From Falsiroseomonas oleicola (lineage in GTDB: Bacteria > Pseudomonadota > Alphaproteobacteria > Acetobacterales > Acetobacteraceae): a stretch of 64,000 nt of DNA. The translations under genes were made by a program, and so were the position numbers. Where the stretch lies: assembly GCF_019029495.1 (NCBI RefSeq), contig NZ_JAERQM010000001.1, positions 496,001-560,000 on the forward strand. Direction: 5' to 3'. The notes under the pieces are model-generated. The model saw nothing but the letters and a program-made list of their open reading frames with translations. It had not been told where the DNA came from and ran no database searches. Position 1 is the first letter of the stretch, and the number at the start of each line of letters is the position of its first letter. Below are positions 40,580 through 57,769 of the stretch, in pieces.

Positions 40580-41198
40580 CGACGTCCTCGAAGAAGGTCA
40601 GGCTGCCTTCATTCAGCACCGCGGCCGTGCGGCAATACAGCTTCAGGTGATCGGGCACATGGGTAACGAGCACCAGGGAACGCCCCCGCGTCTTCTCGGC
40701 CAGGATCTTCTGCGCCCGGTTGACGAAGCGCTGGTCGCCGGTCGCCGTCACCTCGTCGATCAGGTAGCAGTCGAAATCGACGGCGAAGGACAGGCCCAGC
40801 AGAAGCCTACCCATCATGCCGACCGAATAGGTCTTGGCCGGCATGTTCATATAGGGGCCAAGTTCGGCGAAGTCCTCGACGAAGTCGAGAACGCGCTGGA
40901 CCGGCTGGTTGTAGATGCGGGCGATGAAGCGGGCATTGTCGGCGCCGCTCATGGAATTCTGCAGGCCGACGCCATGCGCCAGGGGCCAGGAGACGGACAT
41001 GCGCCGCTCGATCCGGCCGGAGGTCGGGTGCTCCACCCCGGCCAGCATGCGCACCAGGGTCGATTTTCCCGCGCCGTTGCGGCCAAGGATGCCGACCGAA
41101 TCGCCCGGCCGGATGATGCCGGAGACATTGCGCAGCACGTGCTTCTTGCCGCCGCCGCGCAGGTCGTAGTGTTTTGAGACGCGATCGAAATAGATCAA
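40548..41198 (-). CDS. kpsT: Capsule ABC transporter ATPase (KpsT)
   Basis: A 216-residue ATPase that powers export of lipid-linked capsule across the inner membrane. Walker A is ILGRNGAGKST (residues 37-47). The region AKTYSVGMMGRLLLGLS holds the signature motif in the short form typical of KpsT/CtrD (YSxGMxxRLxFGLS), and Walker B is DCYLIDEV. The H-loop histidine lies in LVLVTHVPDHLKLYC. It starts ten bases after the kpsM stop and overlaps kpsE at its 3' end, so it is part of the operon lipoprotein-kpsM-kpsT-kpsE-kpsD. Confidence 0.95.
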   Translation of the reverse strand: MIYFDRVSKHYDLRGGGKKHVLRNVSGIIRPGDSVGILGRNGAGKSTLVRMLAGVEHPTSGRIERRMSVSWPLAHGVGLQNSMSGADNARFIARIYNQPVQRVLDFVEDFAELGPYMNMPAKTYSVGMMGRLLLGLSFAVDFDCYLIDEVTATGDQRFVNRAQKILAEKTRGRSLVLVTHVPDHLKLYCRTAAVLNEGSLTFFEDVDEAVATYTAL

Positions 41199-42047: not shown

Positions 42048-42057
42048 GGCGCGGATC

Positions 42058-42492
42058 TCACGGGCGGGCGGAGCCGCCGCCGCGCAGCAGCGGGCGGGCT
42101 TCCACCCAGCCACCTTCGGGCGCGGCGCAGACCAGGCGGGCACGCTCCGCCATGCCGGCATCCACCCGCAATTCACGGCATTCGCGACCGCTGGCGGCAT
42201 TGTAGCTGCGCACCAGCCGCACCTGCGCGGTGCGGCCATCGGCCAGGGCCAGGCGCGTCGACGCGCCGGGCTGGGCCTGGCTGGCGAAGATCACCACCGG
42301 GTCGGTGGACACAACGGCCGGCCGGGCGGTCACCGCGGCATTGCTGAAGGCGCGATCACCGCTGCGTGCACACCCCATCAGGGCAGCAACCCCGATCACG
42401 GCCACCAGGGCGCGCAGGGGCCGCGTTGCCGAGGAGGTTCCGGCCAGGCGGGCTGAAACGGGCCGGGTTGCGGCTTGTGTGCGGTGCATCAT
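42058..42492 (-). CDS. Small lipoprotein heading the capsule-export operon
   Basis: A 144-residue product from the ATG at 42492 (a second ATG follows at once). The longer frame toward 43455 is a shadow of kpsC. After a basic n-region (TRPVSARLAGTSSATRPLR) comes a hydrophobic core and the lipobox ALMGC at about residue 44. The mature part has a PVVIFASQAQPGASTRLALADG strand region. A pair of cysteines (ECRELRVDAGMAERARLVC) may form a disulfide. I do not recognise a family. Its place, ten bases before kpsM and divergent from kpsC, suggests a role in capsule surface attachment or export; this is inferred only from context. Confidence 0.72.
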   Translation of the reverse strand: MMHRTQAATRPVSARLAGTSSATRPLRALVAVIGVAALMGCARSGDRAFSNAAVTARPAVVSTDPVVIFASQAQPGASTRLALADGRTAQVRLVRSYNAASGRECRELRVDAGMAERARLVCAAPEGGWVEARPLLRGGGSARP

Positions 42493-42530: not shown

Positions 42531-44444
42531 ATGCAAATAACTTCATCTGTTTCACAGCAAGCGGCGCGGCGCGGTGGCGTCGTGGGCCGGTTTCGCCCCA
42601 ACCCCGAGGATGCCCCGCTGCCGATACTCCGGCTTCCCCCGGCTGAGCTGGCCGCCCTGCCTCACCTGCCGGCCTTTTTCCCCGGCCATGAGGTGCAAGC
42701 CGCCGAGCCGGCCGATGCCCGTGCCGCCGATGCCCAAGGGATGGGGGCGCCCGGCGCCGCAGCGCTGCGCTACAGCCCCGGCCCCTTCCGCCCGCCTCGC
42801 CTCGCCGGGCGTGAGGTGCCGGTGCTGCTGGTGGTGGGCCAGGGACCGGACCCGCTGGCCAGCGCCCTCGCCAACCCGCCGGCCAGGCCCGATCTCGCCC
42901 AGGCCAGGGCTGTGATGGCGGCGCTGCTGGCGATGCGGCCCGGGGCGCTCGGCACGGCGATGGATGCGAAGGGCGCGCGCGCCATCCTGCTCGACCCCTG
43001 CGACCCCGCCCGCCAGGCCACGGCCATCGCCCAGCTCGTGCAACACCGCGCCGCCGGCACCCCGCCGCTGCTGCTGCGCGACCCTTTCGGCCCCGGCGAG
43101 GCGGTGCTGCCCGGCAGCCTGCCGGCGCCGGACCCCTGGGCGCTGCTCGATCTCGGCCTGCCGCTGCATGGCGCCAGCCTGCCGCTGGGGCTGCTGGCGC
43201 TGGCCGCCGGGGTCCCCCTGGCCGATGGCCGCCTGGCCGGCGCCGACCCGGCCCTGTCCTGGGCCGCGCTGCTCGCCGCCACCCGCGCGGCCGACCCCTT
43301 CCACAACCGCCCCTGCCCGATTCCCCAGGCGCTGGATCTGCTGGCGCTGTGGCAGGCGCGCGCCACCGAATCGCGCGGCATCGCCGCCTGCCTCGGCGTG
43401 CATCCCTACAAGCGCGACCGGCTGCGGGAATTGCTGGCCAGCGACGCGCCGCCACCCGCCTTCGCCGCCACCCCTGCCCGCGCGATCACCATCGCGCGAG
43501 AGCGTGGCGGCGCGGTGCTGGCCTGGGCCGCCAGCGCGCCGCCGGACCTGCCCGCGCGCTGCGCGGAAGCCGGGGTGCCACTGCGCTGGCTGGAGGATGG
43601 CTTCATCCGCTCCGCCGGCCTCGGCGCCGCCTTCCGCGCCGGCGCCTCCTTCGCCCTCGACCAGGGCGGCCCCTATTACGATCCGCAGGTGGAAAGCGAC
43701 CTGGCGCGGCTGCTGGCCGAGGCCCCCTTCCCGCCGGACCTGCTGGAACGCGCCCGGTCCCTGCGCCGCGCGGTGGTGAACCGGGGGGTCACCAAGTACA
43801 ACCTGCCCGGCGCCATGCCGGAGATCACCGCCCCCGCCGGCCGCCGCCGCATCCTTGTGCCGGGCCAGGTGGAGGGCGATGCCTCCATCCGCCAGGGCGC
43901 CGGCGACATCCGCCGCAACCTCGACCTGCTGCGCGCGGTGCGCGCCGCAGCACCGGAGGCCTGGCTGATCTACAAGCCGCATCCGGATATCGAGGCCGGC
44001 TTCCGGCGCGGCCGCATCGCCGCCGCCGACCTCGACGGCCTGGCCGACCAGGTGCTGCGCCACGCCCCGATGGCGCCGCTGCTCGGCCTGGTGGACGAGG
44101 TTCATACCATCACCTCCCTCACCGGCTTCGAGGCGCTGCTGCGCGGCCGGGAGGTAACCTGCTGGGGCACGCCCTTCTATGCCGGCTGGGGCCTGACCCG
44201 GGATCGCGGCCCCGACGCCGCCCCGCCCCGCAGCCGCCGCCTGACCCTGGACGAGCTGGTGGCCGGCGCACTGATCCTCTACCCCCGCTGCATCGACCCG
44301 CTGACGCGCCTGCCCTGCCCGCCGGAGGTGCTGCTGGACCGCATGGACCGCCCCGACCTGTTCCCCCCCGGCCGCCGCGCCCGCCTCCGCGCCGCCCAGG
44401 GTTTTGTCACGCGCGCCGTCGCCTGGATTCGGGGCTGGCGGTGA
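42531..44444 (+). CDS. kpsC: KpsC-like beta-Kdo transferase for capsule lipid anchor
   Basis: A 637-residue PF05159-type protein. In E. coli KpsC has two Kdo-transferase domains that build the poly-Kdo linker joining the capsule to lysophosphatidylglycerol. Here residues about 285-620 form a complete C-terminal-type domain: LGVHPYKRDRLREL, WLEDGFIRSAGLG, GVTKYNLPG, LVPGQVEGDASIRQGAGDI, IYKPHPDIEAG, SLTGFEALLRGREVTCWG, then PFYAGWGLTRD. Residues 1-285 are alanine/proline-rich and keep none of those motifs, so the first domain appears degenerate or replaced. Rhizobial RkpJ is a relative. It starts at 42531, 38 bases from the divergent lipoprotein gene, and its TGA overlaps the GTG of the following dehydrogenase gene. 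Confidence 0.87.
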   Translation: MQITSSVSQQAARRGGVVGRFRPNPEDAPLPILRLPPAELAALPHLPAFFPGHEVQAAEPADARAADAQGMGAPGAAALRYSPGPFRPPRLAGREVPVLLVVGQGPDPLASALANPPARPDLAQARAVMAALLAMRPGALGTAMDAKGARAILLDPCDPARQATAIAQLVQHRAAGTPPLLLRDPFGPGEAVLPGSLPAPDPWALLDLGLPLHGASLPLGLLALAAGVPLADGRLAGADPALSWAALLAATRAADPFHNRPCPIPQALDLLALWQARATESRGIAACLGVHPYKRDRLRELLASDAPPPAFAATPARAITIARERGGAVLAWAASAPPDLPARCAEAGVPLRWLEDGFIRSAGLGAAFRAGASFALDQGGPYYDPQVESDLARLLAEAPFPPDLLERARSLRRAVVNRGVTKYNLPGAMPEITAPAGRRRILVPGQVEGDASIRQGAGDIRRNLDLLRAVRAAAPEAWLIYKPHPDIEAGFRRGRIAAADLDGLADQVLRHAPMAPLLGLVDEVHTITSLTGFEALLRGREVTCWGTPFYAGWGLTRDRGPDAAPPRSRRLTLDELVAGALILYPRCIDPLTRLPCPPEVLLDRMDRPDLFPPGRRARLRAAQGFVTRAVAWIRGWR

Positions 44445-45211
44445 GCGGGGTCGTCATCAGCGGCGCCTCCCGCGGGCTCGGCGCGGCGCTGGCCCGGCGC
44501 TACGCCGTGCCGGGCGCGCGGCTGCTGCTGACCGCGCGTTCCGCCGCGGCGCTGGAAGGCGTGGCCGAGGCCTGCCGTGCGCAGGGCGCCAGCGTCACCA
44601 CCCTGGCCTGCGACATCACGGAGGCCGCGCCGCTCGCCGCCGCCCTGGCCGTGTTCGAAGCAGCCGGGCCGGTCGATCTGGTGATCGCCAATGCCGGCAC
44701 CTCCGCCGGCACCGCACCGGATGGCACGCCGGAGGATGCGGCGGCGGCGGCACGGCAGGTGGCGGTGAACCTGATCGGCGCCATCAACCTCGTAGGTCCC
44801 CTGCTGCCGGGCATGCGGGCACGGCGCGCGGGGCGGGTCGGGCTGATCGCCTCCGTCGCCGGGCTGCGCGGCCTGCCCGATTTCCCGGGCTATTGCGCCA
44901 GCAAGGCCGGGCTGATCGGCTGGGGCGAGGGGCTGCGCGCCCAGCTCGGCCCGCTCGGCATCCGGGTGACGGTGGTGACGCCCGGCTTCTTCGACAGCGC
45001 CATGGGTGCGCGCTTCCACGGGCGGCGGATGTTCGTGCTGAGCCAGGACCAGGCGGCGGATCGCGTGTGGCGCGCGCTGGAAGCCGGCGCGCCGCGCGCC
45101 GCCTTCCCCTGGCCGCTGGCGCTCGGCCTGCGCCTGCTGGCGCTGCTGCCGCCCCGCCTGGGTGACTGGGCGGTGCGGCGCATGCGCTTCCGGGTCAGCC
45201 CGGAGGGGTAG
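44441..45211 (+). CDS. Short-chain dehydrogenase in capsule locus (RkpH-like)
   Basis: A 256-residue classical SDR beginning at GTG 44441, which overlaps the kpsC stop (GTGA); no ATG precedes the cofactor loop. VVISGASRGLGAALARRYA is the nucleotide-binding loop, NAGTS the structural motif, and catalytic residues lie in IASVAGLRG (serine) and YCASKAG (YxxxK). Residues 190-230 carry VVTPGFFDSAM and a hydrophobic C-terminus (ALGLRLLALLPPRLGDW) that may touch the membrane, as in 3-ketosphinganine reductases. In Sinorhizobium meliloti the SDR RkpH acts with a PKS (RkpA) and an oxoamine synthase (RkpG) in capsule lipid formation. The same partners are encoded in this locus, so reduction of a 3-keto-amino lipid is my inference. 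Confidence 0.85.
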   Translation: MSGVVISGASRGLGAALARRYAVPGARLLLTARSAAALEGVAEACRAQGASVTTLACDITEAAPLAAALAVFEAAGPVDLVIANAGTSAGTAPDGTPEDAAAAARQVAVNLIGAINLVGPLLPGMRARRAGRVGLIASVAGLRGLPDFPGYCASKAGLIGWGEGLRAQLGPLGIRVTVVTPGFFDSAMGARFHGRRMFVLSQDQAADRVWRALEAGAPRAAFPWPLALGLRLLALLPPRLGDWAVRRMRFRVSPEG

Positions 45212-45255
45212 CGACGCATCAGCCGGGCTTCGAATCCGGCAGGACGCGGCAAGCT

Positions 45256-46593
45256 TCAATCCGCGCCGCGCACCGGCTCCGCCACCGGCGCCATCCGCCC
45301 CTGCGCCAGCGGCAGGAAGGGGCCGACACGGTCCTCATCCAGCGTGGCGACAATGGCGCGCACCAGCTCCGCCCGCCCTTCCCGCGCGTAGAAGACGCCG
45401 CGAAGCTGGGTGGTGCCCTGAAGCGCCGCCAGGAAGTCGTCGCGCAGATGCAGGTCGGGCAGCGCCGCCTCGGCCCAGAAACGGTCGAGCGGCCCCTGAT
45501 GTGCCAGCCCGGGCACGTTCCACACCGCCTGCCCCAGCGCCTTGGCCGGCCGGCCCAGCGCCAAAGCGCGCAGCCCCACGGTGCTGTTGATGGTGATCAG
45601 GCCGCGCGCGCGCAGCAGCATCGCATCCAGCGGCCCGTGATGGGCGACATGCACCCGCCCCGTCAGCCCCGCCCGCTGCGCCATCAGCCCGATGCGCCGG
45701 CCCCAGCTTTTCAGGCAGGGGTCGAGCGGATGCACCTTCACCAGCAGCCGCGCCTCCGGCGGCGCCATCCGCGCGAAACTCTCCAGCACCTCCGCCATCG
45801 GGGTGTCGAGGTCGGGATAGGGCGAATAGGCGCGGACGGAAAAATCCGTCTCCATCTGCATGGCGAACAGCCAGAAGGGCGCGTCGCCGATGGCGGCCAG
45901 CGCCTGGGCGCCCTCCGCATGCTCCGCCCGCCGGCGCAGCAGGCGCCGGCCGATGCCGAGATAGGTCGCCACCGGATGGTGCAGCTGGTGGCTGCGGTAA
46001 TGCGGGAAGGGCCAGGGCGCGAGATTGGCCAGGTGGTAGGCCATGTCCCACATCGCCTGAAGGCGGAAATCGTCGCGGTAGCGTTCCGTCAGGTCGGCCC
46101 TCGGCAGGCTGGCGGCCAGGGCGCGGATGCTGTCGGGGTCGCGCGGGAAATGGCTGTCCCCGCCCATGCCATCCTGTTCGAGCGTCACCCAGTCGGGGCG
46201 GAAATAGCCGAAATCGGTCACCGCGACGAAGATGCCCCGGCGCTGCGCCGCGGCGATGGCGGCGCGGTGATAGGCGCGCTGCTCGCCCAGCAACAGGATG
46301 TCGGTGACGCCGTGGCGGTCGAGGTAGCCGGCGATGAACTCCGGCCAGGCTTCCGCCGTGCCGCCATACTGCACCGCCGGCGGCGCGCCGGGCGGCTGGC
46401 GCCAGAACAGCCGGTCGCCGAGCGAAAGGTTGATCCGATGCACCGCATGGCCGAGCTGCGCCAGCCCGGCCGCGACCTCCGCGAAGACCGGGCTGATCGG
46501 CCCCTGCAGGAACAGGAAGCAGCGCGGCCCGGCGCGCCTCGTCCGGCGTCGCGGTTCCGCCGTCCCGCTCAAGCATGAGTCCATTGCCGACAT
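45256..46593 (-). CDS. kpsS: KpsS-like capsule Kdo transferase
   Basis: A 445-residue protein from ATG 46593 (ATG 46584 is also possible). PF05159-type features are CFLFLQGPISPVFAEVAAGLAQLGHAVHRINL, the LLLGEQRAYHRAAIAAAQRRGI segment, VTDFGYFRPDWVTLE, WLFAMQMETDFSVRAYSPY, LLVKVHPLDP and LITINSTVGLRALALGRPA. KpsS adds the first Kdo to the phospholipid acceptor in E. coli group 2 capsules, before KpsC extends it. Here it is the last gene of the PKS operon, 71 bases after the GNAT gene, so its lipid acceptor may be the PKS-derived product (inference). It converges on the dehydrogenase gene with 44 bases between them. Confidence 0.9.
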   Translation of the reverse strand: MSAMDSCLSGTAEPRRRTRRAGPRCFLFLQGPISPVFAEVAAGLAQLGHAVHRINLSLGDRLFWRQPPGAPPAVQYGGTAEAWPEFIAGYLDRHGVTDILLLGEQRAYHRAAIAAAQRRGIFVAVTDFGYFRPDWVTLEQDGMGGDSHFPRDPDSIRALAASLPRADLTERYRDDFRLQAMWDMAYHLANLAPWPFPHYRSHQLHHPVATYLGIGRRLLRRRAEHAEGAQALAAIGDAPFWLFAMQMETDFSVRAYSPYPDLDTPMAEVLESFARMAPPEARLLVKVHPLDPCLKSWGRRIGLMAQRAGLTGRVHVAHHGPLDAMLLRARGLITINSTVGLRALALGRPAKALGQAVWNVPGLAHQGPLDRFWAEAALPDLHLRDDFLAALQGTTQLRGVFYAREGRAELVRAIVATLDEDRVGPFLPLAQGRMAPVAEPVRGAD

Positions 46594-46664
46594 ACTGTGC
46601 CCATAGCCATCATCGGTGGCGGGACTGTCAATGCCACCCGGGGCAGGGCTGGTTTCACGACATT

Positions 46665-47777
46665 TCAATCGAGGCCGCCGCGCCACAGCCGCCAGCGCCC
46701 ATCGACCGGCGCGGGCAGCCGCGCCATGGCATTCAGCATCGCCGCATTGCTGTCCAGAATCCATGAAATTTCAAGATGTTGCCACCCCCGCAGCCGGCAG
46801 TGCCCGATCGCCTCCCGCAGCAGCGCGCCCATCGCCAGGGCGGAGGCGGGGTGGCCACGAAAATCCTGCGTGATGCCGAGCATCGGCAGCCGCGCGCCGC
46901 GCACCTGCCCGGCCAGAGCAAGGCCGAGCCGCGCCCAGCCGAAGGGCAGCAGCCGCCCATTGCCGGGGATGGCTTCGGCGATGTTCGGCACCACGGAGAC
47001 CAGCCCGACCGGCTTGCGGTCCCATTCGGCGAAGATCACCTCCCCCCGCCACAGCAGCGGGCGCAGCAGCCGGCCGAGGCCCTTCACCTCCGCAGCCCCC
47101 AGCGGCACCGCGCCCCAATTGGCGCCCCAGGCGTCGTTGTAGAGCGCGGCGATGCGGCGCAGCTCGCCATCGAAGTCGCGCCGGACCAGCGGCCGCAGCC
47201 GCAGCCGCGCCATCTCCGCCGGGCGCTTCAGGGCCAGCGCGGCGAAACGCGCCGAATGGCGCTCCGCCGCCACATCCAGCGTGCAGGCCAGCATGTCCCG
47301 CACCGGGGCCAGGCCGGCGGCGTCCAGCATCCCGGGCAGCCAGTCCGGCGAGCCGGGCATGCGGAGCATCGGCGCGCGGCCGAAGAAGCCGGCCTGGGCG
47401 CCGACCTCATGGTTGATGGTGAAGGAGAGCGGGCCGGTCATCTCCGCCCTGCCCTGCTCCCGGATGAAGCCGCGCGCCGCCGCCAGCAGCGCCGCCAGCA
47501 CCGCCGGGTCCCGTTCCAGGCAGAGGAAGCCGAAGGTCGCGGGCGCGGCGGGGTCCTTCGGCACGCAGGCGGCGATGCGCCCGGCCACGGCGCCGTCCTT
47601 CCAGGCCAGGAAGCGCTGCACCGCATGGTCCGCCAGGAAGGTGAATACCGCCGGGTCGAACATCCGCGCCTCGTCCCAGCGCAGCGGCACGGACCAGCCC
47701 AGCGGGCGCAGGCGCGCCGGCAGGGCGTGGAAGGCGCGTGCCTCCGCCCCGCCGCTGACAGGCCGCGCGACGATCAC
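46665..47777 (-). CDS. GNAT-fold acyltransferase resembling bacterial ceramide synthase
   Basis: A 370-residue protein from GTG 47777, which overlaps the oxoamine synthase stop (GTGA); the frame open to 48047 is antisense-like. It belongs to the large two-lobed GNAT group with an N-terminal AFHALPARLRPLGWSVPLRWD, a FLAWKDGAVAGRIAACV strand, and MTGPLSFTINHEVGAQAGFF. The C-terminal lobe has RGEVIFAEWDRKPVGLVSVVP and the acyl-CoA loop-like ITQDFRGHPASALAMGALL. As I recall it, this architecture is shared by the Caulobacter ceramide synthase (bCerS), which N-acylates sphinganine. Placed directly after a serine-palmitoyltransferase-like enzyme, N-acylation of a long-chain amino-ketone or amino-alcohol is a strong inference. 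Acetyl transfer to a sugar remains possible. Confidence 0.8.
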   Translation of the reverse strand: MIVARPVSGGAEARAFHALPARLRPLGWSVPLRWDEARMFDPAVFTFLADHAVQRFLAWKDGAVAGRIAACVPKDPAAPATFGFLCLERDPAVLAALLAAARGFIREQGRAEMTGPLSFTINHEVGAQAGFFGRAPMLRMPGSPDWLPGMLDAAGLAPVRDMLACTLDVAAERHSARFAALALKRPAEMARLRLRPLVRRDFDGELRRIAALYNDAWGANWGAVPLGAAEVKGLGRLLRPLLWRGEVIFAEWDRKPVGLVSVVPNIAEAIPGNGRLLPFGWARLGLALAGQVRGARLPMLGITQDFRGHPASALAMGALLREAIGHCRLRGWQHLEISWILDSNAAMLNAMARLPAPVDGRWRLWRGGLD

Positions 47778-49096
47778 CCGGCGAGGTCGGCCGGCGCCAC
47801 TCCATCGGTGGCGGCCACCAGCGCCGCCACGGCGTCGCGCACATCCTGTTCGGAATGCTCGGCCGAGAGGAAGAAGCGCAGCCGCGCCAGCTTCTCCGGC
47901 ACCGCCGGGAAGACGATGGGCAGGGCGTTCACCCCGTGTTCGAGCAAGGCGACGGCAACCCGCACCGCCCGCACCGAGCTGCCCAGCACCACCGGCACGA
48001 TGCTCAACCCCTCGGAGGCGCCGGTGTCGAAGCCATGCTGCCGGCACAGGTCGCGGAACAGCCGGGCATTGGCCTGAAGCTTCGCCACCCGCCAGGGCTC
48101 CGCCAGCATCACATCCAGCGCCGCGGCGGCGGAGGCGGCGAGCGGCGGCGACAGGCCGACGGAATAGACGAAGCCCGGCACCGTATGGCGCAGCCAGTCG
48201 ATCAGGTCGGCACGGGCGGCGATATAGCCACCGGCGGCGCAGAGGGTCTTGGAGAGCGTCCCCATCCAGATATCGACCTCGGCGGGATCGACGCCGGCGG
48301 CCTCGAACACCCCCTTGCCGGTGGCGCCGACGCAGCCCAGGCCGTGTGCGTCGTCCACCATCAGCCAGGCATCGTGCTTGCGGGCGATGCGGACCAGCGC
48401 GGCCAGGTCCGGCACGTCGCCATCCATGGAATAGTGCCCCTCCACCAGCAGCAGCGCCCGCCCGGCGCTGCGGCGGACGCTGGCCATCTCCCGCTCCGCG
48501 GCGCGGACATCGTTATGCGGGAAGGAGACGCGCCGCGCGCCCGAAAGCTTGGCGCCCTCGACGCAGGAATTGTGGATGGCGGCGTCGTGCACGATCACGT
48601 CGCGCGGCCCCATCAGATGGCCGATGACGGTCACATTGGTGGCATGCCCGCTGACGAAGGCCAGCGCCGCCTCCTGCCCATACAGCGCGGCCAGGCGCTG
48701 TTCCAGCACGCCATGCACCGGCCGCTCGCCGGAGACCAGGCGGGATGCGCTGGCGGAGATGCCGTAGCGCGCCATGGCCTCCGCCGCCGCCTGGTGCAGC
48801 CGGGGGTCGCCATTCAGGCCCAGATAGTCGTAGGAGCCGAAGTTCAGCGTCTCCCGATTGCCGATCAGGCTATGCGCCCCGGCACGGCCCTCATGCACCC
48901 GGAAGAACGGGCTCTCGATGGCCAGCGCGCCCATCGCCTCCCGCATCAGGCCCCAGTCGCGCAGGCCCTGGATGGCGCCGAAGCCCCGGTGGTCGGAGGC
49001 GGCCTGCGCCTCCTGCCCCTCACGGCGCTTGGCCAGGCGTTGCACCAGCGCGAGCCGCGCGGCGTTGGAAAGCCCGAAACCTTGCCCACGACTCAT
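47774..49096 (-). CDS. Alpha-oxoamine synthase (serine palmitoyltransferase/KAPA-synthase family)
   Basis: A 440-residue PLP enzyme that condenses an acyl thioester with an amino acid and releases CO2. About 45 extra residues precede the core. Core motifs are NFGSYDYLGLNGDPRL, ISASASRLVSGERPVHGVLE, AFVSGHATNVTVIG, IVHDAAIHNSCVEGAKLSGA, FPHND, VDDAHGLGCVGATGKG (D248, H251) and the Schiff-base K283 in MGTLSKTLCAAGGY. No biotin gene is nearby. Its gene begins 36 bases after the PKS stop on the same strand. The PKS lacks a thioesterase, so this enzyme is the likely release step, as in fumonisin biosynthesis and in the rhizobial RkpA/RkpG pair. The amino-acid substrate (serine, alanine or glycine) is unknown. 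Confidence 0.9.
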   Translation of the reverse strand: MSRGQGFGLSNAARLALVQRLAKRREGQEAQAASDHRGFGAIQGLRDWGLMREAMGALAIESPFFRVHEGRAGAHSLIGNRETLNFGSYDYLGLNGDPRLHQAAAEAMARYGISASASRLVSGERPVHGVLEQRLAALYGQEAALAFVSGHATNVTVIGHLMGPRDVIVHDAAIHNSCVEGAKLSGARRVSFPHNDVRAAEREMASVRRSAGRALLLVEGHYSMDGDVPDLAALVRIARKHDAWLMVDDAHGLGCVGATGKGVFEAAGVDPAEVDIWMGTLSKTLCAAGGYIAARADLIDWLRHTVPGFVYSVGLSPPLAASAAAALDVMLAEPWRVAKLQANARLFRDLCRQHGFDTGASEGLSIVPVVLGSSVRAVRVAVALLEHGVNALPIVFPAVPEKLARLRFFLSAEHSEQDVRDAVAALVAATDGVAPADLAG

Positions 49097-49132
49097 GCTG
49101 TGGTGCGAACCCCCGAATGACCCATGCCGTCG

Positions 49133-52100
49133 CTACTCAGCGGCGCGCACCGTATCTGTGCTGGGTTCGAAGGATTCCATCAGGGTGGAGATGGTCGCCT
49201 CATCGCCCGACGGCGCCAGCGCCGCATCGGCGATCTGCCGTGCCAACCCCCCCACCGTCAACTCCTCGGTCAGCGCCGCCAGCGCCACCTGCAGGCCGAG
49301 CCGCTGTTCCAGCGCCCCGCGCAGCTCCAGCGCGCCCAGGCTGTCCAGGCCGAGGCCGGTCACGGCGGCATCGATGGCCACCGCCTCCGGCGGCAGGCGC
49401 AGGATGCGGGCGATCTCCTCCGTCACCAGCCGCAGGATCAGCGCCTCCGCCTCCGGCCGTGGCAGGCTGGGCAGGCGGGCGCGAAGGTCCTCGCCGGCGG
49501 CGGGGGCCTCGGAGCCGGCCAGCACGGCCAGCATCGGCTCCACCATGATCGGCAGGGCCAGCCGCCCCTCGCCATTGGACAACCGCACCAGCAGCGGCGC
49601 GGCATCGGCGGCGGCGAGCATGGCGGACAAGGCGGAGAGCGACTCCGCCGCCGTCATCGCCGTGACGCCCAGGCGGCGGTTCAGCTTCTCCGCCTTCTCC
49701 CGGTCATCGGCCAGCATGCCGACATCGGCGATCGGCCCCCAGGCGACGGCCAGGGCCGGGCGGCCGGCGGCGCGGCGGCGCCGGGCCAGCGCCTCCAGCG
49801 CCGCATTGGCGGCGACGTAATTGGCCTGGCCCGGATTACCGAAGGCCGTGGTGGCGGAGCTGAACAGCAGGAAAAGGCCCAGCGGATCGCCCGCCGTCAG
49901 CCGGTCCAGATTTTCGGCCGCCTGCAGTTTCGGTGACAACACCCGCTGGAAGCGCGCCGCATTCATCGCCGTGGCGGCACCGTCATCCAGCACCGCCGCG
50001 GCATGCACCACGCCCCCGATCGGCCGCGCCGCCCGGATCTTCTTCAGTGTCGCATCCAGCGCCACCGCATCCGTCGCATCGCACAGATGCAAGGCAGGGC
50101 GGGCGCCGAGGGCCGAAAGCTCCCGCAATGCGGCGGCGGCCTCGTCGCCACCGCTGCGGCCGATCAGCGCCAGGTGCTTGGCGCCCTGGCCCACCAGCCA
50201 GCGCGCGGTCGCCAGGCCGAAGCCGCGGGTGCCGCCGACCACCACGATGGTCTGGTCGGCCGGCGGCGCCCAGGCGGCGGCGGCGGCCGGGCGTTCCGCC
50301 GGCGGGCGGATCACCAGCTTGCCGATATGGGCGGAGGTCTGGAGGGTGCGGAAGGCGGCCTCCACCTCCTCCGGCCCGAACAGCGCATGCGGCAGCGGCC
50401 GCAGCGTGCCGTCCTGCAAGCGGTCCCGCACCCGGCCCAGAAGGCGGGAGGCCTGGCCCGGCCGGGCGCGCGGCAATTCGTCCACATCCACGGCGAAATA
50501 GCTGGCATTGCGCCGCAGCGGCCGGATCGGCGCGCGGCGGTTCTCGACATAGTCGCGCTTGCCGAGTTCCACGAAGCGCCCGAAGGGTTTTACGAGTCCC
50601 AGCGAGCGTTCCATCGCCTCCCCGGCAAGGGAATTCAGCACCACATCGACTCCCTCGGGCCAGGCAGCGCGCAGCGCATCGGCGAAACCGGGGTCGCGGC
50701 TGTCCAGCACCAGCTCGGCGCCGGCGGCGCGCAGGAAGGCGCGCTTGGCGGCGCTGCCGGCCGTCATGGCGATGCGCGCGCCGATCGCCTGCGCCACCTG
50801 CAGCGCCGCGAGGCCGACGGCGCCGGCGCCGCCATGGATCAGCACCGTCTCGCCGGCCTGAAGGTCGGCGCAGGTCTCCAGCGCATGCAGCGCGGTCATG
50901 AAGGCCACAGGGATGGTCGCGGCCTGCACCGGGTCCAGCCCTTCCGGCAGCGGCGCGATCGCCTCCACCCGGGTGACGACGCGGGCGGCGAGCGCCCCCG
51001 GCGCGAAGCCGAACACCCGCGTGCCGGGGCGCAGCGCGACCCCCGGCCCGGCCTGCTCGACGATGCCGGCGCATTCCATGCCCAGCGTCGGCCCGGCGAA
51101 GCCGGCTTCCAGAACCTCCTCCGGCAGCAGCCCCTGCGCCCACATCAGGTCACGAAAGTTCAGCCCGGCAGCCTCGACCCGCAGAACCACCTCCCCCGGC
51201 CCCGGGGCGCGGAGGCTGGCGGGTTCCCAGCGCAGCGTGCCGAGCCGGCCCGGCTGGCCGATGCCCAGCGCCAGCGGACCGCCCGGGGCGGGGCTGGTCA
51301 GGCCGCGTTGCAGGCGCGGCACCAGCCGCGCATCCGGGCCGAGCGTCACCTCCGGCTCCGGCGCCAGTTGCGCCAGTTCGGCGGTCAGGCGTCGCGCGGC
51401 GGCCTCCGGCGCCATGCCCGGCGCCAGGTCGATGCGCCGCGCGCGCAGCGCCGGCATTTCATTGGCCAGCACCCGGGCGAGGCCCTGCAAGGCGGCAGCG
51501 GCGGGCATATGCACGCCCTCCGCCGGCTGCTGGCCACCCTGGGTCACCAGCACGAAACCATTGGCGAGGCCGGCCGCGGCCTCCGCAATGGCGGTGACCG
51601 TGGCCAGGCGCTCCGCCAGTTCCGACGTCTCCGGCGCGGCCAGCAGCAGCAGCCGCGCGCCGCGCAGGGCGCTGGCGGGTGGCACGTCCTCCAGCGCCGC
51701 CTGTTCCACCATGCCGCCGCGCCGCGTCAGCCGCGCGGCCAAAGCGGCGGCGAGAGGGGCGGAGGCGATGTCGGCCAGGATCAGGCTGCGCGGCGGTGCC
51801 GGCTGGGCGGCGGCGGGCGGCGGCGGCGGTTCGGCCGCCAGCAGCAGCGCCGGCCAGGGCGCGCAGGCCAGTTCCTCCGCCACCGTGGCGCGGAACCCGG
51901 CCTCGGCCAGCCGGCCGAGCCAGAGCGCGGCATCCGGCAAAGCACCACCGGCCGAACCGCCCACCGTCTCCGGCCCGAGCCCAGTCCACCAGGACGGGTC
52001 CTGCCCACAGACAAAAGTCCAGACGCGGCCGGGCAGCGGTTCCACCAGCAGCAGCGCCCCACCCTCCGCCAGCGCCGGGCGCAGCGCGGTGGTCAAGGCG

Positions 52101-55100
52101 GAGCCGGCGCGGGCGCGGGCGGCGGGGGCCAGGCCGATGACGAGGTCGGCCACCAGCGGCGGCGGCGCATCGCCGAGCGGGTCCCAGACCACGCCACGAA
52201 TCTCGCTGCCGGCCGGCATGCCTTCCGGCAATTCGGGCAGCGGCACGCGGCCATCGCCGGCCGCGACATAGACCAAAGCGCGGCCGAGCGGCGCCAGGCG
52301 CGCCAGCACGCGACGGGCCAGAACGCCGCTGGCGGCGCCGACTTCCAGGATGCGCAGCGGCCGGGTCTCCGGCCAGGCGGCGGCGAGCGCGCCAACCGCG
52401 GCGGCCAGCGCCTCCGCCAGCCTTGCCATCGCCTCGCCCTGGGGCGGCGGCGGCGGCAGATCGCGCAACCGGCCACGCAGGGCCTCCGGCAGGCGTTCCG
52501 CCGCCTCCGCGATCCAGGCCAGATCGAGCGCCAGGCCAGGCTGTTCCGCCAGGACGGAGCGCCAGATCTCGGCGGCCTCCGGCAGGGCATTGTCGGGCAG
52601 CAGGCGGATGCCGCCACCGCCCTTGCCCGCCGGCTCCGCCGCCCCGTCCTCGACCAGGGCACGACGGAGGAAGGCCTCATAGGCCGAGGCCTCGGGCGCG
52701 GCCTCATGCAAGGTGGGCTCGGCGGCATAGAGGCCCTGGGCGGCGGCGGCGACATGCGCCTCCAGCAGCAGCGCGGCCTCGGTCAGATCGAGCCCGGCGG
52801 CGGCGGCGCGCGCCGCTTCCAGCGCCGGAGCCAGGGCAGGCGCGGGCGGCGCGCCTTCCGCCGCGGGGGCGAGCCCGATGCGATAGGCGGCTTCGGTGGC
52901 GGCGCTCTGCCCCGGCAGGGCGAAACGCTGGAACACCGCATCCTCGACGCGGGCGACGACATTGCCGAGCGCGTCGCGCAGCACCAGCCGCGCGGTGGCG
53001 GAACGCGCGCCGCGCCGGGTCAGCGTGACCTCCGCCGTGACGGCGGCGGCGGCCCCCGGCAGGGCGACCAGCCGCGCGAAGCGCACCGGCACCAGCCCGG
53101 TGCCGGGCGGCGGCGGCGTCTCGGCCAGCAGGGCGAACAGCCCCTGCATGGCGCCATCGAGGCGGGAGGGATGCAGCAGGAAGGCGGCATCCGGCGGCGC
53201 GGAATCGGGCAGCACCAGCCGCACCCGCACCTGGCCGGGCACGGTGGTGGGCGCCACACTGTCCACGGCCGCGAAGGCCGGGCCGTAGGTCAGACCCAGC
53301 CGGGCGGCGATGCCGCGCAGCGTCGCGCCATCCATCGCCTTCGGCGCGCCACCGGGGCCGGGCGGCAGAGCGGGCGGCGCCAGCGCGGCGAGGGTCGCGG
53401 CGCGGACCTCGCCCTCGGCATGCAGCGCCCAGGCTTCCTCGGACAGGCGACGGCGACCCTCGATGCGGAAGCCGCCCTCCGCCTCCAGCGTGCAGCGGAA
53501 TTCGCGGGCACGGCCTTCCTCCAGCGTCGCGGCGCGCAGGATGCGGAATTCCGCCACCTCCAGCGCCGGCGCCTCGGGGAAGCGGGCGCGGGCGGCGGCC
53601 AGCGCCATGTCCAGCATGCCGGAGGCCGGCAGCACCGCATCCGCGCCCAGCCGGTGATCGGCCAGCCAGGGAAACAGCTCCGTATCGATGGCGCGATGCC
53701 AGACGCCCGGCTCGCCCCGCCGGAAACCGAGCAGCGGATGGTCCAGCACCGGGTCCACCAGATGGCTGGCCTCCACCGTCTCCGGCTGCCAGACCGGCTT
53801 GCGGTCCAGCGGCGTCGGCGGCAGGCCGTGCGTGGCCGGGCCGGTGAAGGCCGGGCCCTGGCGCGGATCGGCGCCGGCGGCGAAGGCGCGGTCGGCGATG
53901 GCGGGGAAAGGGTCCGCCCCCTCCCCGTCCCGCTTGCTCAGGCTGACGAGATTCGCCGCCTCCACCGCGGCGGCGCGGGCCGTCTCCCGGATATAGGATT
54001 GCAGCACCGGGTTGGGGCCGACTTCCAGGAACAGCCGGGCGCCCTGCGCCAGCGCCGTGCGCAAGGCGGGTTCGAAACGCACCGGCTGGCGCAGGTTGCG
54101 CCACCAATAGACGGCACCGACCGCCTCCGGCGCCAGCATCTCCCCCGTCACGGTGGAGATCATCGGCACCTGGCCGGGCTGGCCGGCGAGGCCGAGCAAG
54201 TCGCCCAGCAGCCCTTCCCGCACCGGCTCCATCGCCGCGCTGTGGAAAGCATAGTCCAGGTCCAGGGCCACATAGGCGTGGCGCTTCGCCTCCGCCGCCT
54301 GGCGCAAAGTGGCGAGTGCCGCCTCCGGCCCGGCCAGGGTCACAGCGGCCGGGCCGTTGATGGCGCCGATCTCGACCATGCCCGCAAGCCCGGCCTCGGC
54401 GATCAGCGCCGTGGCCTCGGCCGGGGTGGCGCCGAGGGCTGCCATGCGCCCCTGGCCGCGGGTGCGGTGCTGCTGGCGCGAACGCGCCACCACCAGCCGC
54501 GCGGCGGCGGGCAGGTCGAGCAGCCCGGCGGCATGGGCGGCCGCCACCTCCCCCACCGAATGGCCGAGCACAAGGTCCGGGCGCAGGCCTTCGGCGGCCA
54601 GCGCATCCAGGCTCGCCACCTGGATGGCGAAGAGCAGCGGCTGGGCGATGTCGGTGCCGGCGAGCTGTTCCGCCGTGACGCCGGCTTCCAGCATCGCCAA
54701 AGGCGACCAGCCGAGCACCGGCGCCAGCGCCGCATCCGCCCGCGCCATGCCGGCGCGGAAGGGGGCGGAGGTGGCGAGGGCGATGCGGCCCATGCCGGCG
54801 AATTGCGCGCCATTGCCGCTGAAGACAAAGCACAGCCCGCCGGGCGTCGCCGCCGCCGGCCGCTGTTCCGCCCGCCGCCAGGCGGCCAGCGCGCCGGCCA
54901 GGGCCGGGCCATCGCTGCCGCGCAGGACCAGCCGATGCGCATGCAGGTCCCGGTGCCGCGCCGCGCCGCGCGCGAGCGCCGCGACCTCCGCCACTGGCGC
55001 CGCGGCCAGCCGGGTCTCCCAGCTCGCGACCAGGGCGGACAGGGCGGCGTTGGAGCGGGCGGAGAGCAGCAGTGGCGGCTGTGGCGCGCCCTTCGGCGGC

Positions 55101-56431
55101 GTGGCCTGGCGCTTCGGCGGCGGCGCCGGGCCGAGCAGGACGGCGGCATTGGTGCCGCCGAAGCCGAAGGAATTCACCCCGGCGACCGGCTGTTCGATGG
55201 CCGCCAGATCCTCCAGCGTCCCGGGCACGCGGATGTTCAGGGCGGCGAAATCGATGTTCGGATTGGGCTGGGCCTGATGCAGGCTGGGCGGCACCTGGCG
55301 CTTTTCCAGCACCAGCATGGCCTTGAGCAGGCCAGCGACGCCGGAGGCCGGCTCCAGATGGCCGATATTGGTCTTGATCGAGCCCACCGGCAGCGGCGTG
55401 GCACGGCCGGTGGCGGCCTGGCCGATGGCCCAGGCCTCCGCCGGGTCGCCCGCCTGGGTGCCGGTGCCATGCGCCTCGTAATAGGCCATCCGGTCCGGCG
55501 TGGCGCCGACATCGGCCATCACCTGCCGGATCAGCCGCGCCTGCGCGTCCCGGCTCGGCAGCGACAGGCCGATGCTGCGGCCGACCGCGCTGACGCCGCT
55601 GGCCAGCACCACGCCACGGATCGCATCGCCTGCCGCCAGCGCCGCATCCAGCGGCTTCAGCAGGAAGGCCGCCGCGCCCTCTGCCCGCACATAGCCATCC
55701 GCCCCCGCATCGAAGGCGCGGCAGCGCCCGGTGGGGGAGAGCATGGAAGCGCGGGAGAAGCCGACGAAAGGAAAGGGCGAGAGCAGCACCTGCACCCCCG
55801 CCACCACCGCCGCCTCCAGCCGCCCATCCGCCAAAGCCTGGCAGGCAGCATGCAGCGCAACGAGGGAGGAGGCGCAGGCGGTGTCGATGGTCTCGGCCGG
55901 GCCGCGCAGGTCGAAGACATTGGTCAGGCGGTTGGACAGGATCGACAGCGCATTGCCGGTCATGAAGTAGCGATCGCCGCCACTGTGATCCAGCAGCCGC
56001 AGGTCGCTGTAGTCGGTGGAGGACCCGCCGACGAAGACACCGATGTCCCGCCCCGCCAAGGCGGAGGGTCGACAGCCGGCATCCTCCATCGCCGCCAGCG
56101 TCACCTCCAGCAGCAGGCGCTGCTGAGGGTCCATCTCTGCTGCCTCGCGCGGGGAAATGCCGAAGGCGCCGGCATCGAAGCCGCGCAGATCGCCGATGGT
56201 GCCGGCGGCGAAGGTATAGGACCGCCCCGGCTCGCCGCGGCGCGGATGCAGGAACAGCGCCTGGTTGAAGCGGTCGGCCGGCAGCGTCGACACGGCATCC
56301 CTGCCGGCGGCCAGCATCGACCACAGCGAAGCGGGATCGGCGGCCCCCGGCAGACGGCAACCCACGCCAAGGATGGCGATCGGGCGGACGCTGCGGTTCT
56401 GGGCCGCCCGGCGGTGGCGGGCGGGGGTCAT
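49133..56431 (-). CDS. Reducing type I polyketide synthase (KS-AT-DH-(MT)-ER-KR-ACP)
   Basis: A single-module synthase of 2432 residues. KS: C186 in DTACASS, H321 in YEAHGTGTQAGDP, H358 in KTNIGHLEPASG. AT: S625 in LGHSVGEVAA and YAFHS (H730), most like malonyl-specific domains. DH: H926 in DHRLGADAVLP and D1092 in HPSRLDGAMQG. Residues about 1355-1535 contain a methyltransferase-like fold with ILEVGAASGVLARR but no clear catalytic residues, probably degenerate. ER: about 1735-2040 with LIHGGAGAVGLAALQVA. KR: GGTRGFGLATARWL near 2066, S2191/S2192, Y2205, N2209 and an LDD motif. ACP: S2364 in LGLDSLGALEL. All four beta-processing activities look intact, so it should act repeatedly to make a saturated chain like a fatty acid. 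There is no thioesterase; the next gene is an oxoamine synthase. Comparable to rhizobial RkpA. Confidence 0.95.
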   Translation of the reverse strand: MTPARHRRAAQNRSVRPIAILGVGCRLPGAADPASLWSMLAAGRDAVSTLPADRFNQALFLHPRRGEPGRSYTFAAGTIGDLRGFDAGAFGISPREAAEMDPQQRLLLEVTLAAMEDAGCRPSALAGRDIGVFVGGSSTDYSDLRLLDHSGGDRYFMTGNALSILSNRLTNVFDLRGPAETIDTACASSLVALHAACQALADGRLEAAVVAGVQVLLSPFPFVGFSRASMLSPTGRCRAFDAGADGYVRAEGAAAFLLKPLDAALAAGDAIRGVVLASGVSAVGRSIGLSLPSRDAQARLIRQVMADVGATPDRMAYYEAHGTGTQAGDPAEAWAIGQAATGRATPLPVGSIKTNIGHLEPASGVAGLLKAMLVLEKRQVPPSLHQAQPNPNIDFAALNIRVPGTLEDLAAIEQPVAGVNSFGFGGTNAAVLLGPAPPPKRQATPPKGAPQPPLLLSARSNAALSALVASWETRLAAAPVAEVAALARGAARHRDLHAHRLVLRGSDGPALAGALAAWRRAEQRPAAATPGGLCFVFSGNGAQFAGMGRIALATSAPFRAGMARADAALAPVLGWSPLAMLEAGVTAEQLAGTDIAQPLLFAIQVASLDALAAEGLRPDLVLGHSVGEVAAAHAAGLLDLPAAARLVVARSRQQHRTRGQGRMAALGATPAEATALIAEAGLAGMVEIGAINGPAAVTLAGPEAALATLRQAAEAKRHAYVALDLDYAFHSAAMEPVREGLLGDLLGLAGQPGQVPMISTVTGEMLAPEAVGAVYWWRNLRQPVRFEPALRTALAQGARLFLEVGPNPVLQSYIRETARAAAVEAANLVSLSKRDGEGADPFPAIADRAFAAGADPRQGPAFTGPATHGLPPTPLDRKPVWQPETVEASHLVDPVLDHPLLGFRRGEPGVWHRAIDTELFPWLADHRLGADAVLPASGMLDMALAAARARFPEAPALEVAEFRILRAATLEEGRAREFRCTLEAEGGFRIEGRRRLSEEAWALHAEGEVRAATLAALAPPALPPGPGGAPKAMDGATLRGIAARLGLTYGPAFAAVDSVAPTTVPGQVRVRLVLPDSAPPDAAFLLHPSRLDGAMQGLFALLAETPPPPGTGLVPVRFARLVALPGAAAAVTAEVTLTRRGARSATARLVLRDALGNVVARVEDAVFQRFALPGQSAATEAAYRIGLAPAAEGAPPAPALAPALEAARAAAAGLDLTEAALLLEAHVAAAAQGLYAAEPTLHEAAPEASAYEAFLRRALVEDGAAEPAGKGGGGIRLLPDNALPEAAEIWRSVLAEQPGLALDLAWIAEAAERLPEALRGRLRDLPPPPPQGEAMARLAEALAAAVGALAAAWPETRPLRILEVGAASGVLARRVLARLAPLGRALVYVAAGDGRVPLPELPEGMPAGSEIRGVVWDPLGDAPPPLVADLVIGLAPAARARAGSALTTALRPALAEGGALLLVEPLPGRVWTFVCGQDPSWWTGLGPETVGGSAGGALPDAALWLGRLAEAGFRATVAEELACAPWPALLLAAEPPPPPAAAQPAPPRSLILADIASAPLAAALAARLTRRGGMVEQAALEDVPPASALRGARLLLLAAPETSELAERLATVTAIAEAAAGLANGFVLVTQGGQQPAEGVHMPAAAALQGLARVLANEMPALRARRIDLAPGMAPEAAARRLTAELAQLAPEPEVTLGPDARLVPRLQRGLTSPAPGGPLALGIGQPGRLGTLRWEPASLRAPGPGEVVLRVEAAGLNFRDLMWAQGLLPEEVLEAGFAGPTLGMECAGIVEQAGPGVALRPGTRVFGFAPGALAARVVTRVEAIAPLPEGLDPVQAATIPVAFMTALHALETCADLQAGETVLIHGGAGAVGLAALQVAQAIGARIAMTAGSAAKRAFLRAAGAELVLDSRDPGFADALRAAWPEGVDVVLNSLAGEAMERSLGLVKPFGRFVELGKRDYVENRRAPIRPLRRNASYFAVDVDELPRARPGQASRLLGRVRDRLQDGTLRPLPHALFGPEEVEAAFRTLQTSAHIGKLVIRPPAERPAAAAAWAPPADQTIVVVGGTRGFGLATARWLVGQGAKHLALIGRSGGDEAAAALRELSALGARPALHLCDATDAVALDATLKKIRAARPIGGVVHAAAVLDDGAATAMNAARFQRVLSPKLQAAENLDRLTAGDPLGLFLLFSSATTAFGNPGQANYVAANAALEALARRRRAAGRPALAVAWGPIADVGMLADDREKAEKLNRRLGVTAMTAAESLSALSAMLAAADAAPLLVRLSNGEGRLALPIMVEPMLAVLAGSEAPAAGEDLRARLPSLPRPEAEALILRLVTEEIARILRLPPEAVAIDAAVTGLGLDSLGALELRGALEQRLGLQVALAALTEELTVGGLARQIADAALAPSGDEATISTLMESFEPSTDTVRAAE

Positions 56432-56494
56432 GCGGGGGTCGCGCTCAGCGCAGACGCCCCGGCGCCTGGGCGCGCGGCCGGGAAATGGGGTGCC

Positions 56495-57769
56495 TCATGG
56501 CATGCCCTCGTCACGCCGCGCGGTGCCGCGGCGGACCATGTCGTGGTGGGGCTCACTGACGCGCGGCGCCAAGGGTTCCGTCGGTCGTCGCACGAGGTCG
56601 CTGAATAGTTGTTCCACTTCAATGAAATGCTCATCCCAGCTTGGCGGACGCCATTGTGTCAGCCGGCTGAGCTGGGCGCGGCGGCCAGGACTGTCAGGCC
56701 GGGCGTAGTCCAGCACCGCATTGCGCCAGGCGGGGCCGTCCAGCGGGTCCAGGTAGTCCGGCACCTTCCGCCCCACCTCCCGCAACGCCGGCAGGTCGGA
56801 GGCCAGAGCGGGCACGCCGAGCGCCAGGCTTTCCGCCAGCGGCAGGCCAAAGCCCTCGGCGAAGGAGGGAAACAGCAGGGCCCGCGCGCCGCGCAGCAGG
56901 GAGGCAACCTCCCGATCGGGCAGGGAGCCGGATTCGCGCACCAGCCCGTCGAGGGCGGAGCAGCGTTCCAGCATGTCCAGCACGTTCTCATTCTCCCAGC
57001 CACGACGGCCCACCACGACGAGGCGCGGCGCGGCGCCGCCCATGGCGTTGGCGAACTGGCGCCACAGGTTCAGCAGCAGCAGGTGGTTCTTGCGTGGCTC
57101 GATGGTGCCCAGGGCGACGAAATAGGGGCGCAGCGAAACCGGCGGCGCATCCACGCTGGAAGGGCTGACGCCCAGCGGGGCGACGGCAATCAGCGGCCGG
57201 TCATTGCGCGCCGACAGCCAGGGCGCCAATTCCTCCGCCGTCGCCGCGGAATTGACGATGATGCCATCGGCGAGCGCGGCCGTGGTGACGATGCGCCGCT
57301 TGTGCCGCTCGGCCTGTCCGTCCCGGGCGAATTCCGGATGCTGCAAAGGGATCAGGTCGTGGATCAGGGGCACGAAATGGCAGCCATTGCGCCGCATGGC
57401 CGCGATGCGGCCGGGCCGTTCCAGCGCACGGTGGGAGACGAGGAGGAAGCTTTTCGGCCCGGGCTTGCGCAGGGCCTCGTTCATCGCGGGGCGGCCGAAG
57501 GGCAGCGCCAGGCGGGCGCGGCGCGCGGCATTGGCGGCGAGCCGGGTGCCGCTTTCCCAGGATTCCTCCAGGGCCGCCACCAGTTCCCGCACCAGCGACA
57601 GCGGCAGGGCGGCGAAACCGAGCAGGGGAACTTCCGCGACAAAGGTGCAGTTCTGCGGGTGATGCAGCATCCAGTGCCGGGCATAGGCCATTTCCACCCG
57701 GTCGATGCCGGAAGGGGCCGGCCGATGGGCCACCGTCAGCAGGCGGGAGATGTCGAGGAAGACATGCAT
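56495..57769 (-). CDS. Glycosyltransferase family 4, first gene of PKS operon
   Basis: A 424-residue GT-B enzyme from ATG 57769; the frame open to 57853 lacks a ribosome site, while GGAGG and AGGGG lie before 57769. It opens HVFLDISRLLTVAHRPAPSGIDRVEMAYARHW, a start shared with capsule GT4 enzymes. Further sites are VPLIHDLIPLQHPEF, FVALGTIEPRKNHLLLL, GRRGWENENVLDML and LFPSFAEGFGLPLAESLALGVPAL with the E-x7-E donor motif. It is cytosolic or membrane-bound. The PKS start is 63 bases downstream on the same strand. It may add a sugar to the lipid product or to the repeat unit of the capsule. Confidence 0.9.
   Translation of the reverse strand: MHVFLDISRLLTVAHRPAPSGIDRVEMAYARHWMLHHPQNCTFVAEVPLLGFAALPLSLVRELVAALEESWESGTRLAANAARRARLALPFGRPAMNEALRKPGPKSFLLVSHRALERPGRIAAMRRNGCHFVPLIHDLIPLQHPEFARDGQAERHKRRIVTTAALADGIIVNSAATAEELAPWLSARNDRPLIAVAPLGVSPSSVDAPPVSLRPYFVALGTIEPRKNHLLLLNLWRQFANAMGGAAPRLVVVGRRGWENENVLDMLERCSALDGLVRESGSLPDREVASLLRGARALLFPSFAEGFGLPLAESLALGVPALASDLPALREVGRKVPDYLDPLDGPAWRNAVLDYARPDSPGRRAQLSRLTQWRPPSWDEHFIEVEQLFSDLVRRPTEPLAPRVSEPHHDMVRRGTARRDEGMP

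Follow-up and report, generated by a model that had tools for sequence, protein, structure and literature searches.

This analysis concerns a capsule locus of Falsiroseomonas oleicola (Acetobacteraceae), located in a 64,000-nucleotide stretch of contig NZ_JAERQM010000001.1 (the window), in which genes for a polyketide synthase (PKS), an alpha-oxoamine synthase (AOS), a short-chain dehydrogenase/reductase (SDR) and a tandem-GNAT N-acyltransferase are embedded among kps genes. We propose, with moderate confidence, that these enzymes, with a formyltransferase replacing the GNAT protein in some relatives, build an N-capped sphingoid lipid, destined for the capsule, that is primed with 3-deoxy-D-manno-oct-2-ulosonic acid (Kdo) by KpsS. 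The lipid chemistry, as set out in an earlier annotation of this DNA (the original prediction), is likely, and a capsule anchor is the single reading of the lipid's use that best fits what we observed: the gene content, the sequence kinship of the encoded proteins, the exchange of one gene in its slot and the co-occurrence of KpsS with sphingoid-base synthases. Part of the novelty claimed by that prediction has lapsed, since polyketide-made sphingolipids were published in 2025; new here are a ceramide-synthase-type step in a locus of the rkp-1/sga kind, within a capsule operon, and the exchange of that step for a formyltransferase.

Gene content and proposed pathway

The features of the locus, with window coordinates and strand, are as follows.

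37497..39260, minus: kpsD-like export protein (Poly_export and SLBB matches)
39368..40579, minus: kpsE-like chain-length/export protein (Wzz match below its own cut-off, plus position and synteny)
40548..41198, minus: kpsT, ABC transporter ATPase (PF00005)
41208..42239, minus: kpsM, ABC-2 permease (PF01061)
42531..44444, plus: kpsC, beta-Kdo transferase family (PF05159, 5e-34)
44441..45211, plus: SDR, candidate 3-keto-sphinganine reductase (adh_short; role by analogy with RkpH/SgaC; synteny)
45256..46593, minus: kpsS, first Kdo transferase family (PF05159, 5e-70)
46665..47777, minus: tandem-GNAT N-acyltransferase of the capsule clade (kin of proteins encoded next to serine palmitoyltransferase; ceramide synthase family by neighbourhood)
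47774..49096, minus: AOS of the rkpG-type clade (Aminotran_1_2; GTLSKT lysine motif)
49133..56431, minus: single-module PKS, KS-AT-DH-(stretch with no Pfam match)-ER-KR-ACP (Pfam domains)
56495..57769, minus: GT4 glycosyltransferase, conserved operon head (sequence family and synteny)

The minus-strand order is thus GT4, PKS, AOS, GNAT and kpsS, with kpsC and the SDR gene facing them and kpsMTED adjoining. Only 36 bases separate the PKS from the AOS gene, the AOS stop and the GNAT start (GTG) share a GTGA overlap, and a second GTGA overlap joins kpsC to the SDR gene; the kpsS start codon is one choice among several possible. The set for a Kdo-primed, ABC-exported (group 2/3) capsule is complete, comprising KpsS, KpsC, KpsM, KpsT, KpsE (weak match plus synteny) and KpsD, with KpsS scoring 158 bits on the curated KpsS model (cut-off 600). 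PKS, AOS, SDR and KpsS are all present, the combination that marks an rkp-1-type locus. The succession GT4-PKS-AOS-GNAT-KpsS, as far as it is covered by the fetched sequence, is found again at 13 loci (L033-L045) of 13 other genomes and is therefore not due to chance.

The Pfam scan found no thioesterase in the PKS and no match in the long stretch between DH and ER; the DH match itself is split in two parts. The AT domain bears a YAFH motif, and a similar motif, IAFH, is taken as malonyl-type in PMC3908369 (here and below, statements on published work refer to the accessible parts of the sources). The PKS would build a long saturated chain and retain it on its own ACP, from which the AOS would release it through condensation with an amino acid, of which L-serine is the likeliest, to give a 3-keto-sphingoid base. 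The SDR would then reduce the ketone and the GNAT protein would acylate the amine, yielding a ceramide-like lipid; the capping would fall to a formyltransferase in three relatives. KpsS would add the first Kdo, KpsC would extend it and KpsMTED would export the chain, while the GT4 enzyme may act on the anchor or on the first linker sugar.

The original prediction fares well at this level. Its gene content (GT4, a PKS lacking a thioesterase, AOS, GNAT and KpsS, a facing KpsC/SDR pair, and kpsMTED) was recovered in full, each gene at its predicted place, and its PKS-AOS route to a sphingoid base has a precedent by analogy, as the formation of sphinganines from serine has been demonstrated for a different PKS-AOS pair (PMC12134224). 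Its final step, in which Kdo would be placed on this lipid and not on lysophosphatidylglycerol, is inferred, and the phospholipid anchor described for S. meliloti 1021 (below) speaks against it. The prediction missed the formyltransferase exchange and an LTA-synthase-like gene (LTA, lipoteichoic acid) present in several other such loci, though not in the window.

The GNAT protein and its exchange for a formyltransferase

At E 0.001 the window GNAT has no match among Pfam or NCBIfam models, and the GNAT alignment, used as a profile against PDB sequences, gave nothing at E 0.01. Its AlphaFold2 model (mean confidence, pLDDT, 91) matches tandem GNAT structures of many functions in Foldseek, which does not separate lipid from sugar substrates. 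The protein is present in 23 of 59 genomes searched: the window's own, 16 at 45-78% identity (2 of which are truncated at contig ends) and 6 at 27-35%. In a scan of named genomes, from which the best 80 of 499 loci were kept, eight loci reach at least 44% identity; seven of these are PKS-AOS-GNAT-KpsS loci, six with a GT4 gene and the seventh ending at a contig end before it, and one (L096) has none of these genes near. Among the 72 more distant relatives of the best 80 (<44%), serine palmitoyltransferase (SPT) is found in the flank of 45, another ceramide-cluster match, in some cases weak, in 7, and neither in 20; the SPT, CerR and fatty acyl-AMP ligase labels of the queries were assigned after the cluster on a Klebsiella plasmid and a G046 protein scoring above the SPT cut-off. 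Whole-genome searches of 16 ammonia-oxidiser genomes without SPT in the flank, covering 16 of the 27 such loci (14 of the 20 no-match and 2 of the 7 other-match loci), found SPT above the curated cut-off in 15, the single genome without it being a 1.5 Mb assembly.

The window GNAT is 27-36% identical to the SPT-associated N-acyltransferases and has their invariant residues in common. It is also 31% identical to E. coli YghO (L191 8983-10125, plasmid record NZ_MG591698.1), which is annotated just as 'protein YghO' and is encoded beside genes for an AOS, an ACP, an epimerase/reductase, a fatty acyl-AMP ligase and LptF/LptG, surroundings that are likely a ceramide set. By neighbourhood, the GNAT protein belongs with the bacterial ceramide synthases, and its predicted activity is N-acylation of a sphingoid base. 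In a quick-mode tree of 97 rows, which has some long branches and from which loci on contigs already represented were omitted, a branch (100, starred) sets the 15 capsule-PKS GNATs and L046 apart from the others. The GNATs of L048 and L086, capsule loci with no PKS in the stretch in which AOS, SDR, fatty-acid hydroxylase and KpsS genes accompany the GNAT gene, cluster with four from SPT-bearing genomes of the family (99, starred). Because they branch apart from the capsule-PKS GNATs, ceramide-synthase-type GNATs were, as judged from this tree, recruited into capsule loci at least twice. Separately, in four family genomes with SPT elsewhere (L049-L052), the GNAT gene stands head to head with an SDR gene, whose product may be the reductase in place of CerR.

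An AOS at least 60% identical to that of the window is present in 18 genomes, of which 15 have the capsule-type GNAT and three (G006, G010 and G017) a formyltransferase; none has both and none has neither. The formyltransferase-family genes that stand in place of the GNAT gene, next to kpsS, are the following.

L174 6545-7342
L176 7651-8421
L177 10729-11553

They encode proteins of 256-274 residues that are 54-100% identical to the G010 copy, with PF00551 in both of those tested. In G010 and G017 the gene occupies the slot between AOS and kpsS; in G006 it lies directly before kpsS, ~190 kb from the PKS-AOS pair. That pair (L175 6515-10161) adjoins lpxK and a waaA-type Kdo transferase gene, remote from kpsS. 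The other genomes of the 18 give weak formyltransferase matches (<=50 bits), as expected for general formyltransferases. In G025, one of the 15 genomes with the GNAT, the GNAT gene, the PKS-AOS pair and the kps genes are mutually distant. The three formyltransferase loci lie apart in the AOS tree, where starred branches force three changes, and L175 is sister to the GNAT-bearing L039 (97, starred). Further cases lie outside this count: G004 and G014 have the end of a GNAT gene and kpsS on short contigs, with AOS not found, and G026, which has no AOS, carries a 50% identical formyltransferase on a 4 kb contig without a visible capsule gene. Different small GNATs are encoded nearby in other capsule loci, directly after the AOS gene in Paraburkholderia and beside the LTA-synthase-like gene in Pseudomonas. 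The shared need seems to be the capping of an amine, which the AOS product carries. The exchange amounts to a natural experiment, in that the anchors of close relatives should differ in their amine cap.

The AOS and the pairing of KpsS with sphingoid-base synthases

The window AOS scores below the curated SPT cut-offs (210.8, 275.7 and 294.6 bits vs. 670, 500 and 640). Its closest solved relatives by sequence are the Sphingobacterium SPT (234 bits) and then KBL (201 bits), and its lysine motif is GTLSKT, with GTLSK or GTFSK in the rkp-type AOS and SPT proteins examined and GTLAK in L065. In a quick tree showing 68 of 100 rows (duplicate-contig loci and two of every three SPT rows were omitted, and BioF and KBL were not included), the window AOS falls in a 27-row clade (99, starred) with L083-L085, L180 and L182 of rkp-type PKS capsule loci, to whose AOS proteins it is 50-53% identical. 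This capsule clade spans the window group, S. meliloti, Caballeronia, Pseudomonas and others, and also L186, which does not adjoin kps genes.

The window genome (G000) gives two matches to the SPT model, at 241 and 210 bits, vs. 443-835 bits in five SPT genomes. The 210-bit protein is the capsule AOS; the 241-bit protein groups with L065, neither with SPT nor with the capsule AOS, and is probably 5-aminolevulinate synthase. We considered whether the GNAT protein might serve an ordinary ceramide pathway encoded at another site in G000 and ruled this out, as no further SPT-like AOS was found there. Because the genome holds a single GNAT of this family and no other SPT-like AOS, the adjacent capsule AOS is the likely partner of the GNAT protein.

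Among 35 genomes of the family (G000-G034), 24 have KpsS, and 22 of these have a capsule-clade AOS (>=44% identity) or SPT; the two without a sphingoid-base synthase are G004 and G014, both with short contigs. In the 11 genomes lacking KpsS, SPT is present in two and neither synthase in nine. Counted by genus, a synthase is found in 10/10 with KpsS vs. 2/11 without. G022 and G023 combine KpsS with SPT and the distantly related GNAT and have no AOS match within the stretch around KpsS; G022 has a hydroxylase and an LTA-synthase-like gene near KpsS.

Two further elements of the original prediction are supported. Its ceramide-synthase-like GNAT has sequence relatives mostly in ceramide clusters and not among sugar genes, and its rkpG-type AOS carries a lysine motif like that of SPT and falls among enzymes of the rkpG type.

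Known systems and alternative explanations

The E. coli group 2 kps locus shares KpsS, KpsC and KpsMTED with the window, whose KpsS falls well short of the curated cut-off, and to our knowledge contains neither PKS nor AOS. The acceptor in E. coli K5 is (lyso)phosphatidylglycerol (PMC7694667). The Caulobacter-type ceramide pathway (Spt, bCerS and CerR; PMC11087976, PMC11324152) likewise joins an AOS, an N-acyltransferase and a reductase, but in the window the chain would be carried on a PKS-borne ACP instead of acyl-AcpR, the reductase would be an SDR instead of a CerR-like enzyme, and the genes lie within a capsule locus. The rkp-1 locus of Sinorhizobium (L083, S. meliloti pSymB record) resembles the window in bringing together PKS, AOS (52% identical to its window counterpart), SDR and KpsS; it differs in an LTA-synthase-like frame between SDR and KpsS, which we read as sitting at the RkpI position, and in having no GNAT match, whereas the window has the GNAT gene and no such frame. 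Rhizobial rkp-1 mutants are described as lacking normal capsule (PMC4881576). The literature covered gave no answer as to the product of PKS and AOS in rhizobial capsule loci, and no title linking sphingolipids to capsules was found for this kind of locus among the matches listed, with subscription papers mostly outside coverage.

The sga cluster of P. fluorescens MYb115 also has an iterative PKS, an AOS and an SDR (PfSgaC, a presumed reductase). PfSgaA/B make C24-C28 sphinganines; PfSgaB, the AOS partner of the PKS, accepts almost only L-serine, and further products are, according to the authors, most likely phosphoglycerol sphingolipids (PMC12134224). Unlike in the window, no N-acylation step is reported and 'capsul' occurs 0 times in the accessible text of that paper. 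In the Pseudomonas plasmid locus L085, PKS and AOS genes are accompanied on the other strand by genes for a dioxygenase, a capsule protein, a 200-residue GNAT, an LTA-synthase-like protein, an SDR and two capsule proteins, the capsule proteins including KpsS and KpsC matches. The locus tags published for the sga PKS, AOS and SDR (RS19805, RS19800 and RS19775) are spaced just as the corresponding genes are in L085; on this basis we predict that sga is a capsule locus, with kpsC and an LTA-synthase-like gene lying between them.

More tentatively, rkp-1, sga-type and Roseomonas-type PKS-AOS loci may be one system, in which KpsS starts on a very-long-chain sphingoid anchor and not on lysophosphatidylglycerol. 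The amine cap would be interchangeable (long acyl, formyl, or perhaps small acyl added by other GNATs), with close relatives switching between two-chain and one-chain lipids, and an LTA-synthase-like protein, where one is encoded, would add phosphoglycerol, so that the sphingoid base would mimic lysophosphatidylglycerol. LTA-synthase-like matches occur near KpsS or in the locus in S. meliloti, Caballeronia, Pseudomonas and Acidisoma, as well as in G020, G022, G024 and G025. We rejected the idea that this gene is always present: the G025 protein as query at E 1e-15 found homologues in 0/15 genus genomes, 0/5 other family genomes and 1/34 overall, outside the family, in a search that included no positive-control family genome. 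The five PF00884 proteins of G000 are all encoded away from the locus. A KpsS of the window type would have to use the ceramide hydroxyl directly, or the GT4 enzyme may place a sugar first. The tie to the 2025 sphinganine work gives the rhizobial capsule PKS and AOS a concrete, testable product and offers a rationale for the order of the genes, and the locus would join rhizobial capsule genes with a recently described sphingolipid-making route. If the proposal is correct, sphingolipids gain a further bacterial role as capsule anchors, and SPT gene counts alone would miss sphingolipid makers.

Several observations weigh against a sphingoid capsule anchor. Among NCBIfam models bioF fits the AOS best, with a score below its cut-off, and family models thus do not decide its class. 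The ceramide-synthase family name is set by gene neighbourhood, and one relative (L046/L096, 45%) has neither an AOS nor a capsule gene nearby. The search with the G025 protein, which had no positive control from the family, and one other found no LTA-synthase-like homologue in G000 as a possible supplier of a phosphoglycerol recognised by KpsS. The association of KpsS with the synthases (Fisher p = 4e-5 by genome, 2e-4 by genus) is overstated by these values, as the relatedness of the 35 genomes makes p too small.

The strongest alternative, which we nevertheless consider unlikely, is that these enzymes supply a free sphingolipid that capsule assembly or export, or the outer membrane, requires, with ordinary (lyso)phosphatidylglycerol as the covalent anchor. 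The Kdo capsule of S. meliloti 1021, a strain with rkp-1, has a phospholipid anchor according to the primary paper's title and one sentence in a secondary source, and if a glycerophospholipid anchor were general in rkp-1 loci, the PKS lipid would not be the anchor. A phosphoglycerol sphingolipid would also carry phosphate, and another paper speaks of a lipid anchor. A review has the rkp-1 products making or modifying a specific lipid carrier for secretion, and free sphinganines were detected in MYb115 (PMC12134224). The sphingoid lipid has other uses too, since two family genomes with SPT and GNAT have no KpsS. Against a free lipid stand the location of kpsS in the same operon or close by in several genera, and the finding that, in the family, KpsS occurs without a sphingoid-base synthase in just two short-contig genomes.

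It is less likely still that only PKS, AOS and SDR make the lipid, with the GNAT protein and the replacing formyltransferase acting on an amino sugar in the repeating unit of the capsule. The solved protein nearest to the formyltransferase is ArnA, an amino-sugar enzyme, an acetyl/formyl exchange would suit an amino sugar too, and the Foldseek matches include glucosamine N-acetyltransferases among general tandem GNATs. The ceramide-cluster kinship of the GNAT protein and the overlap of its start with the AOS stop argue otherwise, however, as does, less strongly than the kinship, the rarity of nearby sugar aminotransferases: a strong DegT-type match within 100 kb on the same contig is absent in 6/7 genomes tested, some of whose contigs are shorter, and lies 16 kb from the slot in the seventh, G006. 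Finally, a secreted signal or secondary metabolite that is merely encoded in a capsule locus, in line with the view in PMC12134224 that sga products are secondary metabolites acting on the nematode host, is very improbable given the gene order with kpsS in the operon common to several genera and the capsule deficiency of rkp-1 mutants.

PKS similarity was dropped as a marker for such loci: the plasmid matches cover the KS part alone, and the top 15 include Streptomyces and Thioclava PKSs, one Thioclava stretch being read without an annotated capsule gene, as well as capsule-type loci. GT4 matches adjoin KpsS also in stretches without a PKS (L048, L086, L184 and L185). PKS and AOS are separated by a gene for an LpxC-type deacetylase in capsule loci of Caballeronia (L084 13937-14863) and Paraburkholderia (L193 10887-11801).

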